From contig JANXUO010000112.1 of NCBI GenBank assembly GCA_025356245.1, forward strand, positions 1-38,560: DNA of 38,560 nucleotides, read 5' to 3'. This DNA comes from Hymenobacter sp. (GTDB taxonomy: Bacteria > Bacteroidota > Bacteroidia > Cytophagales > Hymenobacteraceae). Below are positions 20,670-30,176 of this stretch, in pieces; positions within the stretch are counted from its first letter, which is position 1, and each line of letters begins with the position of its first letter. Below the pieces are notes generated by a model that had not been told where the DNA came from, searched no databases, and was given only the letters and a program-made list of their open reading frames with translations. The translations under genes and the position numbers were made by a program.

Positions 20670-20758
20670 TGAAATGTTGAGTGTTGAATGTTGAATGTTG
20701 AATGGTTCAGGATAAACAATCAGCATTCAACACTCAGCATTCAACACTCAACACTTCA
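20670..20758. terminator. 35-bp imperfect inverted repeat with TTGAATG-type arms, overlapping a CDS 3' end
   Basis: tgaaatgttgagtgttgaatgttgaatgttgaatg ... cattcaacactcagcattcaacactcaacacttca. The right arm includes the last codons of the 20734-22020 minus-strand CDS. Confidence 0.75.
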
Positions 20759-22020
20759 ATAATCTGCTCTGCTACTTCGCGACCGGTGGCCAGGGCGGCG
20801 TTTAGCGACGGGTAGGCGCTCCAGTCGCCGCAGCGGTAGAGGGTATCGGTCAGGCGCAGTGGGAGTTGGGTGGGTTGGCCGGCGGCGTACTCGGGCAGGG
20901 CGTTGGCTATTTCGTAGGTTTTGAGGTGCTCCCAGCCCGCCACCTGGGGGCCAAACCACGCCAGCAGCTCCTCGCGCAGCTGCCGGGTAAGGTCGGCGGC
21001 AGTCAGGCCGTGCGCGCCGTGGGTGCTGACGGATACCAGGTGGCGGCCCACCGGAGCGCAGGCCGGGGCCGTTTCGGAGGCAAACACTACGTTGTGGGCC
21101 AGCTGGTTGGGCATGGCGTTGAGGCGCAGCAGGCCATTGCGGTGGCCGGGGGCGGCGGCCCCGGCGGGGGTGGCAAAGTAGGTGCAGGTGGTGCGGCGGG
21201 CGGCGGCAATGCGGCCGTTTTCGGGCAGCACCTGGCCGGGCAGCAAGTGGGCCGGGGCCGAACCGTCAACGGCCAGCACCACGGCGGCGGCGGTCAGCAC
21301 CTCGCCGTTTTCGAGGTGGACGCGGCGGCCCTCTACACGGGCCACGCGGGTGCTGAGGCGCACCGTGCCCGTGGGCAGGCGGGCGGCCAGCTGCTCGGGC
21401 AACTGTTGCATACCGAGGGCCGGCACGGCCGCCGCGCCGCGCACAAACTGCTGAAACACAAACTCGAAAAAGTTGCTGGCCGTGCCCAGGTCGCGGTCGA
21501 GAAACACGCCCCCAAAAAATGGCCGGAAGAAGTTGTCAATCATGCCCTCGCTCCAGCCGTAGCGCCGCAGGAAGCTGAGCGTGTCGGTGGCTGGGCGGGC
21601 CAGCAGCTCGGCGGGCGTGTGCTTGGCCACGTGGCGCACCAGGCTCAAAATCCGCAGCTTGTCGGTGAGCGTACCAATGGGCGAGGCCAGGGCCGAAAAC
21701 GCCGCCAGCGGCCGCTGCAAGGGGTTTTGCAGGGTCGTTTCGCGCCCGTCGGCCAGCCGGATGACGGCCCCCGACTGGTAGGCTTTCAAGTTCAACGCCC
21801 CGTAGTCGAAGATGCGCCGGGCCTCGGGATACTCCGTCAGCAGCACCTGAAACCCCCGGTCGAGCCGGAAGCCCTCGGGCGTGACGTCGGTGCGCACGCG
21901 CCCGCCCACGGCATCAGCAGCTTCGAGCAGCAGCACGGAGCGGCCGGCGCGGTGCAGCCAAGTGGCGCAGGCCAAGCCCGCCATGCCCGCGCCAACGATG
22001 ATGGTTGGAGATTTTGTCAT
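20734..22020 (-). CDS. FAD-dependent oxidoreductase (amine oxidase / protoporphyrinogen-oxidase-like fold)
   Basis: 'TIIVGAGMAGLACATWLHRAGRSVLLLEAADAVGGRVRTDVTPEGFRLDRGFQVLLTEYPEARR' dinucleotide-binding motif; C-terminal 'LYRCGDWSAYPSLNAALATGREVAEQI'. Confidence 0.9.
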   Translation of the reverse strand: MTKSPTIIVGAGMAGLACATWLHRAGRSVLLLEAADAVGGRVRTDVTPEGFRLDRGFQVLLTEYPEARRIFDYGALNLKAYQSGAVIRLADGRETTLQNPLQRPLAAFSALASPIGTLTDKLRILSLVRHVAKHTPAELLARPATDTLSFLRRYGWSEGMIDNFFRPFFGGVFLDRDLGTASNFFEFVFQQFVRGAAAVPALGMQQLPEQLAARLPTGTVRLSTRVARVEGRRVHLENGEVLTAAAVVLAVDGSAPAHLLPGQVLPENGRIAAARRTTCTYFATPAGAAAPGHRNGLLRLNAMPNQLAHNVVFASETAPACAPVGRHLVSVSTHGAHGLTAADLTRQLREELLAWFGPQVAGWEHLKTYEIANALPEYAAGQPTQLPLRLTDTLYRCGDWSAYPSLNAALATGREVAEQIIEVLSVEC

Positions 22021-23716: not shown

Positions 23717-25281
23717 CTAGGGCTGCAGCACCTCGGCGGCGTTGGCCACGGGGCCAAAGCGCTTAAAAATCAGCAGCTGCTCGTCTTCGTAGGCCACCCG
23801 GAAATCGGCCCGTGCCCGCAACTGCTCGATGGCCCGGGCGCTGGCGGCCAGGCTCAAGGGCCAGGCGCTGCCCTCGTCGGGGTAGCGCAGGATGGCCACG
23901 TAACGGGCATCGCGCACCACCGGAAACAAATACAGCTGCGGCCGCTCGGGCACCTGCGGCACTAGGCACGACTGCGCACTGAGTGCCACCGTGGCCGGCA
24001 GCCGGGCCAGGGCGGCGTGCAGGGCCGCCCGCTGGTAGTGGCAGCGGTAGTGCCGCCCGAGCAGGAAATTGGTGGTTGTGCGGTCGTACCAGGTGCTTTG
24101 CCGGGTGTAAAGCGTGACGATGGTAAACAGGGCCGTGACAGCTACTGCCACCGGCCCCGCCAGCGCCCGGCGCCCGGCGGGCAGGGGCGGGCGGGCAGCC
24201 AGCCAATCGGTCACGGCCAGCGCCAGCACCGGCGCAAACTCGATGGAATACTGGCCGTTGATGCCCCATATTCCAGGGTCGTTGGCCAGCAGCTTCTGGC
24301 CGACAATGGGCAGCAGCATCAGGGCGTACCAGGGCCGCCGCAGCAGCGCCCAGCCGCCCGAGAGCAGCAGCGCCGCCCACAGCTCCAGCTTGATGTAATT
24401 GTGCGCCGGGTCGCCGGTGGTGTTCTCCAACAACGCCGCCCACAGCGCCGCCGGGTGCGCCAGCACGTAGGCCACGGCGGCGGGCAACGACGGCCCCAAA
24501 TGACGGTAGCGCACCAGCTGGGCAAAGGCCCGGTGGGCGTGGTCGAGGCCCGGCATCACGTAGCTGGTTATCAACCAAAAGTAAGCTAGGGCGCCCCCGG
24601 CGGCCAGGCCCAGCCCGGCGGCCACCGCTCGCTGCCGCCGGTGCTGCCAGGCCAAGCCCAGCAGCACGAAAGCCAGCCACAGGGCCATGTTTTCTTTGCT
24701 GAGCAGCAGCAGCAGGGCGGCCGCGGCGGCGGGCAGCCAGCGGCGCTGCCCCACCCACAAGGCCAGCCAGGGCAGGGCCATGGCCCCCACCACGTTGTCG
24801 TGATAATCAAACCCCAGCGCCGAAAAAACGCCCCACTGGCTACCAAACAATGCCAGTGCCCAACTGGCCTGCCCCGGCGTAGCACCCCGCGCCAAGGCGT
24901 AGCACCCCGCGCCAAGGCGTAGCGCCACACGCCCAGCGCCCCCAGCAGCACCGCCCCCAGCTGCACCAGCAGCAGCGCCCACGCCCCGCCCGTTAGCCAG
25001 TAGAGCGGCACGGCCAGCACCGGCGTCAGGCTGAAATGCACGGCTAGAAACGGCATGGGCGGCGCGTCGTGCAGCAGCGTGGCCCAAGGCGCCCGCCCGT
25101 GGGCAAACGCCGCCACGGCCTGCGCCGTAATACCCAAATCAAGGGCGGCGGTGCGGAAGTTGAGCTGATTGACGAGTGAAATCAGCGCGTATGTCAGGCC
25201 GAAGCCCAGCAGCAGCAGGGCTGGTAGCAGATGCCGAAAGCGGGCAGCAAGAGTCGAGGATTCAGCCATGGAAAGCGCCAA
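23717..25281 (-). pseudogene. DUF2079-type multi-TM membrane protein, reading frame interrupted by a 20-bp tandem duplication
   Basis: N-terminal half in frame of ORF 24586-25281 (MALSMAESSTLAARFRHLLPALLLLGFGLTYALISLVNQLNFRTAALDLGITAQAVAAFAHG...GVWRYALARGATP), C-terminal half in frame of ORF 23717-25087 (...YALARGATPGQASWALALFGSQWGVFSALGFDYHDN...). Removing one 20-bp copy merges them into 514 codons plus stop. Confidence 0.85.
24881..24920. repeat. Perfect 20-bp tandem duplication (2 copies)
   Basis: agcaccccgcgccaaggcgt x2, flanked by further identity (ggcgt before, agc after). Confidence 0.97.
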
Positions 25282-25540: not shown

Positions 25541-26364
25541 GAAGCTGTTTAGAAAGTCAAAGGACTCCCAAAAAAGCGCGAAATTTGAGGTGCAACACTC
25601 ATCTTTTTCGCATTTTGATGGAAGTCCTGTCCAAAGATATGATTCGCCAATGGATTCTGCCCGTGCTCACCTTCTCCGCCCACGGCCGCCCCTCGGTCGT
25701 GGAGCCGGTCGAGTTAGTGGAAGTCATCCTCTACAAGCTCAAAAGCAGCTGCCAGTGGCGCTTGTTGCCTGTCAATCAGTTTTTTACGGGTGCAACGCTG
25801 ACCTGGCAGAGCGTGTACGCCCGCTTTAATGCCTGGCGCAAGAACGGGTCGTGGCAAGGGGTCTGGCTCCGTTTGTTGCGCGAAAACGGGGCCCACCTGG
25901 ACTGTTCCAGCGTCCAACTGGACGGCAGCCACACACCCGCCAAGAACGGCGGGGAGGCCGTCGGCTATCAGGGCCGCAAAAAAGCCCGCACCACCACGGC
26001 CCTGTTCCCGGCCTACAACCGGGGCCAGCCTTTGGCCTGCGCCCGCCCGCAGGCGGGCAACCACCACGACACGCACCGGCTCAACGCCTTGTTCGGGGAA
26101 ATCTGCGCCGCGCTCGAAGCGGCCAACATCCCCCGCAACCGCCGCGCCGCCGACTGGCAGACCGACGACGACACCCCCTTCGACCCCGAACTTTACGCCC
26201 GCCGCGTCGTGGTCGAACACGCCAACGCCTGGCTCGGCGGTTTTAAAACCTTGCTCGTCCGCTACGAAACCAGCGTCGGCAATTGGCTGGCCTGGCACTG
26301 GCTCGCCTTCGTCGTCATCCTTTTTGCAAAAAATCAACCAAAAGCCGACTTTCTAAACAGCTTC
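25541..26364 (+). mobile_element. IS5-family-like insertion sequence (824 bp), probably defective
   Basis: Perfect 18-bp terminal inverted repeats gaagctgtttagaaagtc (25541-25558) and gactttctaaacagcttc (26347-26364) enclosing a transposase. No clear target-site duplication. Confidence 0.88.
25618..26356 (+). pseudogene. IS5-like transposase, apparent internal deletion and 3' frameshift
   Basis: MEVLSKDMIRQWILPVLTFSAHGRPSVVEPVELVEVILYKLKSSCQWRLLP...LDGSHTPAKNGGEAVGYQGRKKARTTTALF...NHHDTHRLNALFGEICAALEAANIPRNRR...VVVEHANAWLGGFKTLLVRYETSVGNWLAWHWLAF. The annotated frame runs past the right IR; the alternative frame ends at TAA inside the IR (KINQKPTF*). Confidence 0.8.
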
Positions 26365-26393: not shown

Positions 26394-27966
26394 ATGAGTG
26401 ACGTTTGGTTGATGTGCCTGCTTATTGGCAGCTTGTTTTTTTTGGTGGGTAGTTACGTAGGTTGGCGGCAGCAGCGCCCAGCTCAAGCCTTGCTACTGTT
26501 GATGGGAGCCGCCTTCTTGCTGCGCTTGACAATGATTGGCCTAGACCCCTTTCTGCACGATTGGGACGAACGGTATCATGCCTTAGTAGCTCGCAACCTC
26601 ATGGATGCCCCCTTGCGTCCAATGTTGCGGGCTATTCCCGCGTTGCCCTACAATTACAAAGCGTGGTGCTGCAACCACGTTTGGCTGCACAAACAGCCGT
26701 TGTTCCTGTGGCAAATGGCCCTTGCCATGAAAGTTTTCGGCACCAATGTAGTCGCGCTCCGGTTGCCCAGCGCCTTGCTCGCTCGGCAGTCTCTTGCTTT
26801 ATCCGATTTATCGCATTGCCCTACTGATTTACCACGACTTTAGCACCAGCTACCTGGCGGCCGTGCTGGCTGCTTTTGCCTTTTATGCGCTGGAGCAAAC
26901 CAGTGGCCTCATTGGTATGGACCACGACGATGTTGCCTTTACGGCCTACGTAGGTGCCAGCGTATGGGCCTACTACGAGTACCGGGTCAGTGCCCGGCCC
27001 GGCCGCTGGCTGGTGGCGGTGGGCGCATTTGCTGGCGCAGCGGTGCTGTGTAAGTGGCTTACCGGCTTGGTGGTATATGCTGCTTGGGGTTTGGATATTT
27101 TGAGCGACCCCGCCCGTCGTCGGGTGGTCATGCAGTACGTTCATGCCGGGTTATCTGTGGTGGCAGCCACCGTCGTCTGGCTGCCCTGGCAACTGTTCAC
27201 CGCCTACCACTACCCCCTCGAAAGCGCCTACGAGCGCAGTTACAATGCCCGCCATTTCACTGAGGCACTGGAAGGCCACGCCCACGACTGGTACTACCAT
27301 TTCGCGCTGCTTCCCATTCACTACGGGGCCATTTGTGGGCTGCTGGTCCTGGGGGTGGGTTGGGCGCTGTTTTCTGCCGACCGGCACCGCCCAGTGGGGC
27401 TGCTTTTGGCTATTGCGGGGTTGATTTACGCCTTTTTTACGCTGGCAGCAACCAAAATGTACTCATATACCTACGTTGTCAGCCCTTTGCTGTTTGTGAT
27501 AGCGGCTCGCCCGCTCGCATTGTTTATAGCATGGCTGCCGGGCCGATTTGCGGGCCGGCCCTGGGGGGTGGGTTTGGCAACTGCGGGGTTGCTGCTAGCG
27601 GTTGTGTTGCTTGATGCTCGTCCCTGGGGAGTGTACACGGTGCATTTTCAAGAAGGAAGCTACGGCCTTTACCAAGAAATGCTACAACGCCCAGCTCGTA
27701 CGGCCAACGCTAGGCTTTATGCGCAACTGGGCGAAGACCTACCCGCTGAATACCTGATAATCAACGTCCCCGGCAGCGAGGAAGTGCAGGCCATGTTCCA
27801 TTCTGGGCGCACCGTATACAGTTGGCCACCCAGTGAAGCACAAGTGCGCTCGCTAATACAGCAAGGCTGGCGCATTACGGCCTTCGACAGCCACCACAAC
27901 CAGCAGCTACCAACTTACGTTCGGGCCACACCGGGCTTTCGTCTCATTTGGGGCGCTCCAGAGTAG
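26394..27966 (+). pseudogene. ArnT/PMT-like GT-C glycosyltransferase, reading frame interrupted by a 4-bp tandem duplication
   Basis: N-terminal frame ...LDPFLHDWDERYHALVARNLMDAPLRP...WLHKQPLFLWQMALAMKVFGTNVVALRLPSALL; C-terminal frame ...GSLLLYPIYRIALLIYHDFSTSYLAAVLAAFAFYALEQTSGLIGMDHDDVAFTAY.... The join is at GCTCGCTC (26777-26784). Confidence 0.85.
26777..26784. repeat. 4-bp tandem duplication GCTC-GCTC at the frameshift
   Basis: ttGCTCGCTCggcagt. With one copy, ttg ctc ggc agt reads LLGS and joins both frames. Confidence 0.85.
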
Positions 27967-28112
27967 CATCGTCCACCCCTGACCTTGCAGGCCTCACTCA
28001 TCAATGCGCCGCAGTCGGACGCACCGCCCGCCGCCATTTTTGTACCCCATTGGCCTTGCAGCAAGTAGTTTTGAAGAACAACTGGGGGCAAAACCACACC
28101 CGGCTTGCTTTG

Positions 28113-30176
28113 ATGCGCACCTTCTACTTTATTTTGCTTTTGAAGTTTGCCGCAACGGCAGGGCAACCTGCAGTGGGGCAACCATGCCGCCCCCAGTATC
28201 CTTTTTACGATTCCACGGCTTTTCTGAACACGGCCCGCTACCTAGCCCGTGCCGTGGCCATGAACGGGCTCACCGACGAGAACCTGCCCATGGGGGTTGA
28301 CTGGAACCGCACCCCCGATGGCAGACGGTGCTACACCGGCGGCCCGCCCGCAGACCCCGCCAGCTACGTGGACAGCCTGACCTGCAACGGCCGATGCACA
28401 TTTGCTTATTGTCCAGTCAATTTCGCGGCTGATGTTGCGCTGTTGGTGCAGCTTAGGGCATCGTTTGTGCAATTTGCGGCCGCCAACTGGGACCGGGCTG
28501 AACGGTTTGTGCCGGGGTCTGATTTTTTGAAGGCAGCGGCCCAAACCGTAATCCGCATCAACGAAGCTTACGACTGTGTGGGGTTGCCGCGCCCCTTTAT
28601 CCAGGCATCGGTACTCGAAAACGTCGACGAAAGCCGTACCTGCGACCCACCGGCCACACCCTGCGAAAGTTGGATGAAGCCAGGGCCGCCAGGCACCAAC
28701 TCGGGAGTGCGCGACGTGGCCATCCTGCCTTCAGTTATCGAAGAGTTTCGCAACGAGTTGCACAACCCGGCCGACAGTGCCTATTACCTTGACGAGAACG
28801 GGCACCCCCGCACTAAGCTTCATTTTAGTTTTCCCCGGTTGTCGTATTTGTTTTGGCGGGCCGACTATGCTCCCGACGCCACCAAGCTGGAAGGCCGGAT
28901 GTGGCTCTATTACCAGGCCACCTGCTACCTCGACTGCGGCTACACCAGCCTGCACATGGGCCAGCCCAAGGTGTGGGCCAAGCTGCACCTGGTGCCCGCC
29001 GCCCAGATGCCCGCCGCCTTGCATCGGATGGGGCTGTTCCTGGCCCGCATTCGCCATTATGCCCGCCAACGCCCCGGCAACCTGCCCTTGTTGCTCACGG
29101 CCGAGCCCATGACTCTTTACGGCTCCAACGACCGCGAGATTCAGCACTTTGTGGATGGACGCGACGCGCTCGGCCGCCCACGCCTGCTTTTCGACTTTGG
29201 CATGGCCACCATGCGGCCCCGCGAAACGTACCCGGCCCTCGACGAAGCTGCCAATCCAGTTCCGAACGCCTTTAGCTGCCCCGACCTAGACCCGCTGGCC
29301 CTTACCGACGGGCCTTGCGCGGGCCGCCCGATGGCCACCATCGACCCGTGCCACGGCTACAATTTCGGGCCGGATGGCGGGGGCGTCACCCCCTTGGGTG
29401 CGCAGTACAAACAGTCCCCCTACGTCATTTATTTCGACCACGGCGACTCGGTGGCACCGCTGCCGGGCGGCGGCCTTGCAACCACCGGCGTACTGTGGCC
29501 CGGCAATGGCAGCGTGTGGGGCTGGGACGACTCGGCCTGGTTTTCCAAGGCACTGGGCGACAGCTGCCAGGCGCGTTGGCTTACCTACCAGATGCGCCGC
29601 GTTCAGGCGTTCAGCAACTCGCGGGGTTTCCTGGCGGCCCCCGGCCGGGTCACCAACAACCTGTACACGGGCTACAACCAAGGCCCGGGACGCCCCGACC
29701 AGCCCGAGCTATCGGTGGCCGACTACCGCTTGGCCGCCCATCCGGTGGTGGTGGCGGCCCTGGCGCAGGCGTGGCAGCCAACGGTTCCTTCTCCGGTGGT
29801 GAGCGTAGATGCCGGCGAGGGCATCCGCCAAGGGCAATGCCCCAACAGCTGGCTCTTCCATCGGCGCTACCGCCAGCTTCCCGCCTGGACGCTCCGCGTA
29901 AGCAACCCCGACCCAACCTCCCTCTACGCTTGGCACCTAGCGAATGGCACCGGCCCGGACACGGTGCTCTACGGCACCACCCAGCGGTTTTTGCCGGCCA
30001 CTGCGGGCAGCTATTCGGTGGTGCTTTACCAGCACAACCTGGGGTTGCCCCCCGAAAATCGCGGCGTCAGGCGGGTGCCCGTGCTGGCGGCCAGCGCAGT
30101 GGCCATTTGCGTAAGCCGCAAGCAGGCCCGGCACGGGCGCCGCGCCACCGCCGATGCCAAGCCAGCCATTCCTTGA
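28113..30176 (+). CDS. Large secreted protein of unknown function (687 aa), Cys-containing, possibly alpha/beta-barrel-like core with PKD-like C-terminus
   Basis: Signal peptide MRTFYFILLLKFAATAGQPAVGQ; long uninterrupted ORF with many Trp/Tyr/Cys and strand-helix-like segments (LHMGQPKVWAKLHLVPAAQMPAALHRMGLFLARIRHYARQRPGNLPLLLTAEPMTLYG; PYVIYFDHGDS). Fold statement is inference. Confidence 0.75.
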   Translation: MRTFYFILLLKFAATAGQPAVGQPCRPQYPFYDSTAFLNTARYLARAVAMNGLTDENLPMGVDWNRTPDGRRCYTGGPPADPASYVDSLTCNGRCTFAYCPVNFAADVALLVQLRASFVQFAAANWDRAERFVPGSDFLKAAAQTVIRINEAYDCVGLPRPFIQASVLENVDESRTCDPPATPCESWMKPGPPGTNSGVRDVAILPSVIEEFRNELHNPADSAYYLDENGHPRTKLHFSFPRLSYLFWRADYAPDATKLEGRMWLYYQATCYLDCGYTSLHMGQPKVWAKLHLVPAAQMPAALHRMGLFLARIRHYARQRPGNLPLLLTAEPMTLYGSNDREIQHFVDGRDALGRPRLLFDFGMATMRPRETYPALDEAANPVPNAFSCPDLDPLALTDGPCAGRPMATIDPCHGYNFGPDGGGVTPLGAQYKQSPYVIYFDHGDSVAPLPGGGLATTGVLWPGNGSVWGWDDSAWFSKALGDSCQARWLTYQMRRVQAFSNSRGFLAAPGRVTNNLYTGYNQGPGRPDQPELSVADYRLAAHPVVVAALAQAWQPTVPSPVVSVDAGEGIRQGQCPNSWLFHRRYRQLPAWTLRVSNPDPTSLYAWHLANGTGPDTVLYGTTQRFLPATAGSYSVVLYQHNLGLPPENRGVRRVPVLAASAVAICVSRKQARHGRRATADAKPAIP

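Follow-up and report, generated by a model that had tools for sequence, protein, structure and literature searches.

Why does a gene that occupies one open reading frame elsewhere in its genus lie here in two overlapping frames, with a perfect 20-bp tandem duplication at the break? The window analyzed, a stretch of 38,560 nucleotides, is contig C455 of an environmental Hymenobacter draft genome (4.38 Mb, 678 contigs, 81.9% complete), and its lesions are known from this assembly alone. A first-pass annotation had named three options: reversible phase variation, recent inactivation, and an assembly artifact. Recent inactivation fits best, phase variation is not supported, and we retain the artifact as a rival. 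We estimate a probability of roughly 0.73 that the duplication is a recent loss-of-function mutation, produced by slipped-strand duplication and since fixed.

A sequence check located the unit AGCACCCCGCGCCAAGGCGT at both positions given by the first-pass annotation, 24881-24900 and 24901-24920, and the two units are identical. Tandem Repeats Finder (TRF) describes the array (24876-24923, no strand assigned) as having a period of 20, 2.4 copies, and 100% matches; it comprises two units plus the 8-bp GGCGTAGC of a third and shifts the frame by +20. Because GGCGTAGC stands at each end of the 20-bp unit, the duplication is bounded by short direct repeats, which bears out the earlier suggestion that this repeat is a natural substrate for slippage. 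With up to three mismatches allowed, these are the only two sites in the window, compared to a mean of 0.03 in shuffled sequences, and the unit with three additional bases has no second site anywhere in the 4.38-Mb assembly. Insertion of a dispersed repeat was ruled out as the origin, since the unit is absent elsewhere in the genome. In the 476 kb of this genome that we sampled, the array is the perfect tandem repeat of out-of-frame length with the longest period, and a complete relative, examined over 380 kb, contains a comparable repeat of 19 bp. The array is rare, yet not unique in kind. Perfect 21- and 42-bp tandem arrays (GCGTGTTTTGCTTGCTCGTAA and related sequences) occur on other contigs of the same genome (L132, 12087-12178; L142, 4009-4103).

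The gene affected encodes a GT-C-like protein of the DUF2079 family (PF09852) and spans 23717-25281 on the minus strand, an assignment based on the split Pfam match, the one-unit reading, and the fold match of a relative. Its start is likely the ATG near 25269. The N-terminal ORF (24586-25281, minus strand) encodes approximately 129 native residues followed by approximately 102 out-of-frame residues, and the C-terminal ORF (23717-25087, minus strand) carries the native C-terminal residues, approximately 395, in a different frame. These ORFs match adjacent parts of the DUF2079 profile (5-91 and 82-403). Scores for the two pieces are 96.3 and 45.0 bits, both above the curated Pfam cut-off of 28.2 bits. 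The frame is thus not continuous, being split by the additional 20 bp. Read with one unit, the gene is open for 514 amino acids without a stop (1565-20 = 1545 = 515 x 3), so the earlier frame arithmetic is correct, and the split match and the one-unit reading agree with the earlier claim that the duplication puts the gene off-frame. No further DUF2079 genes were found in this genome.

We found no papers on DUF2079 in the open literature searched, and structure prediction provides a hint about the type of protein. The AlphaFold model of a DUF2079 relative (L010; pLDDT 78, pTM 0.82) resembles the GT-C glycosyltransferases ArnT (5ezm) and PglB (5ogl) with a Foldseek probability of 1.00, but identity is 15% and 11%, respectively, and TM-scores are just 0.40-0.47. 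Matches of the model to ArnT, PglB, AglB, and yeast STT3 have E values of 1.9e-4 to 9.9e-4 and TM-scores below 0.5. DUF2079 may therefore be a putative GT-C glycosyltransferase family, and this fold-based link is a by-product of the analysis for a family absent from the literature searched. Mapped onto the L010 model, the break falls at residue 138, by the loop that separates helices 108-133 and 138-158.

Comparison with relatives indicates that the repeat is lineage-specific. Among 120 genomes of the genus surveyed, 28 contain a DUF2079 gene that scores above the cut-off, this genome included, and in all 27 others the gene is a single open frame of 509-838 amino acids. The first-pass annotation had considered that relatives might share the two-copy frame; instead, the relatives aligned at the site have a single copy, without the flanking 8-bp repeat. 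Close relatives have CGC TAC GCC at this position; different codons come next, and GCTACGCC does not recur. Of the two halves of the slippage repeat, the first thus encodes a conserved Arg-Tyr-Ala stretch, and the second (GCT ACG CC) is peculiar to this genome and lies in a different codon register, so the slippage substrate looks like a product of chance. A search for genomes of the same species found none, and the nearest homolog is approximately 73% identical in DNA. In genome G031, genes for an aldehyde dehydrogenase (ALDH), DUF2079, PMT, and GT2 are laid out similarly to this locus, and its DUF2079 and PMT genes are divergent and both intact.

Slipped-strand duplication between the 8-bp repeats is the simplest route to this arrangement, and it is well precedented by direct-repeat-bounded duplications arising de novo in a bacterial gene (PMC4169377). 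In the ancestor, a 20-bp interval would have been flanked by chance direct repeats of GGCGTAGC; mispairing during replication would then have produced a second copy of the interval and lengthened the gene by 20 bp. The frame would shift after residue 129 of the 514-residue membrane glycosyltransferase of putative GT-C type, in an inter-helix loop, and the product would be a truncated membrane protein, presumably inactive. Suitable substrates are common in this genome: direct repeats of at least 8 bp at an out-of-frame spacing of 9-60 bp occur at 0.87 pairs per kb, compared to 0.94 per kb in the complete relative. A genome-wide burst of gene-breaking duplications was considered and ruled out, as tandem repeat counts in the 476 kb sampled here resembled those in the relative's 380 kb; longer tandem duplications of out-of-frame length were not in excess in this comparison, and 4-5 bp tandem candidates were roughly equal in number. 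The coding-frame scan did not list the 4-bp PMT_2 lesion described below and is thus insensitive to genes of unusual composition.

The duplication is one of three repeat-associated indels within 2 kb, in surroundings that appear to have been damaged locally and recently. A PMT_2/ArnT-like gene (26394-27966, plus strand) is frameshifted, with its PF13231 match split into profile positions 3-32 and 38-160. It is broken by a 4-bp tandem duplication of GCTCGCTC (26777-26784, plus strand), recognized by comparing the one-unit reading with relatives: with one GCTCGCTC unit the gene reads LRLPSALLGSLLLYPIYR, in agreement with six relatives. Between this gene and the DUF2079 gene lies an IS5-family element (25544-26361, plus strand) with the ends GCTGTTTAGAAAGTC...GACTTTCTAAACAGC. 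A longer copy on contig C355 reveals a 93-bp deletion in this element at approximately 26121, between direct repeats of GGCCAACATYCCC, and the deletion removes part of the transposase. These two additional lesions, in the IS5-like element and the ArnT-like gene, suggest that the lineage is losing the function of the DUF2079/PMT_2 locus. Partial copies of the IS5-type element lie at the ends of contigs C63, C8, C54, and C334, and the element probably breaks the assembly. Two other features of the window were observed. Downstream of the PMT gene, a large ORF (27948-30176) has no Pfam or NCBIfam match. Between two converging genes, 20672-20759 contains heptad and 14-mer repeats (AATGTTG; TCAGCATTCAACAC) in inverted orientation; with up to three mismatches allowed, the genome has 37 sites, compared to 0 for a reversed control. 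The repeat is thus dispersed and intergenic, and it may be a terminator hairpin.

Judging from residue conservation, the DUF2079 and PMT_2 lesions are both recent, because invariant residues are retained in both broken genes and the 20-bp units are identical; the data give no finer dating. The read-through DUF2079 protein retains all 52 residues that are invariant in eight relatives. PMT_2 retains 122 of 135 invariant residues, which is close to the 122/125 to 122/133 obtained for the intact relatives, each left out in turn. Full retention in DUF2079 would be equally expected of a gene that is still sometimes ON, and would in that respect count against recent loss.

The strongest competitor to recent loss is an artifact of assembly, library preparation, or consensus calling, with one unit in the true chromosome. 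We consider this a minority possibility, though one to be taken seriously: the draft is fragmented and incomplete, all relatives are intact, and a second frameshift only 1.9 kb away would be expected where a stretch is poorly supported. However, no k-mer in common use for assembly is as short as 8 bp, and an assembler would need molecules that bear the second copy in order to report it. Moreover, none of the 14 other Pfam-matched ORFs checked in the window looks split, and the lack of excess of longer out-of-frame duplications noted above also argues against an artifact. We infer a genuine change that is common in the population sampled.

Phase variation, in which one unit would be ON and two units OFF, toggling a GT-C enzyme and hence a surface glycan, is improbable. 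It draws on a copy-number model in which the native C-terminus is reached with 1 or 4 units and missed with 2, 3, or 5, on the glycosyltransferase genes in the locus, on pneumococcal capsule genes, in which duplications reportedly govern phase variation (Waite et al. 2001, 2003, as cited in PMC4022640, according to their titles), and on de novo penA duplications that revert at measured rates of 9.3e-7 to 3.6e-5 (PMC4169377). Against it, the 20-bp repeat is private to this genome, with neither a conserved repeat tract nor copy-number or ON/OFF differences among relatives; the broken form occurs in 0 of the 27 other genus members; the array has just two units; and 8-bp substrates of this kind are common in the genome. 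The reversible switch envisaged by the first-pass annotation also faces the independent repeat-associated lesions of the adjacent gene and the IS element, since switching DUF2079 alone might not restore a locus whose neighboring GT-C gene is separately broken. A literature search found no paper on phase variation in Hymenobacter. Still less credible is a lineage-specific glycan switch with two locks, in which both GT-C enzymes of a polysaccharide locus would be OFF via precisely reversible tandem duplications of 20 bp and 4 bp. Least probable of all is that the two ORFs are translated as separate, cooperating proteins: both frames have long open stretches and in-frame ATG/GTG codons are present downstream of the repeat, but every relative has a single frame and the N-terminal ORF ends in the out-of-frame residues described above.

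On the most probable reading, a recent loss of function through a slipped-strand event, this locus is a clear, small case of short chance repeats breaking genes. Reversion by loss of one unit is possible and shows no sign of use, and such reversibility is alone insufficient to make a contingency locus. The case urges caution before two tandem units in a draft genome are called a phase switch. Known systems provide partial parallels. In Burkholderia thailandensis penA, de novo tandem duplications, some of them (TR1-3) bounded by direct repeats, were attributed to replication slippage (PMC4169377). As here, these are two-unit duplications in coding sequence that are reversible by loss of one unit; in contrast, the penA enzyme stayed functional, altered and antibiotic-selected, whereas here the frame is lost under no known selection. 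In pneumococcal capsule genes, as far as the titles cited in PMC4022640 indicate, spontaneous duplications similarly abolish the product from within a polysaccharide gene, but switching is reported there, compared to one draft sequence with no sign of switching here. The E. coli topA R168C mutator generates tandem duplications, of 2-19 bp in galK, that like ours are short, head-to-tail, and gene-inactivating (PMC6954433). Those duplications were independent of pre-existing repeats, whereas an 8-bp repeat flanks our 20-bp duplication, and unlike the mutator, this genome shows no genome-wide excess.
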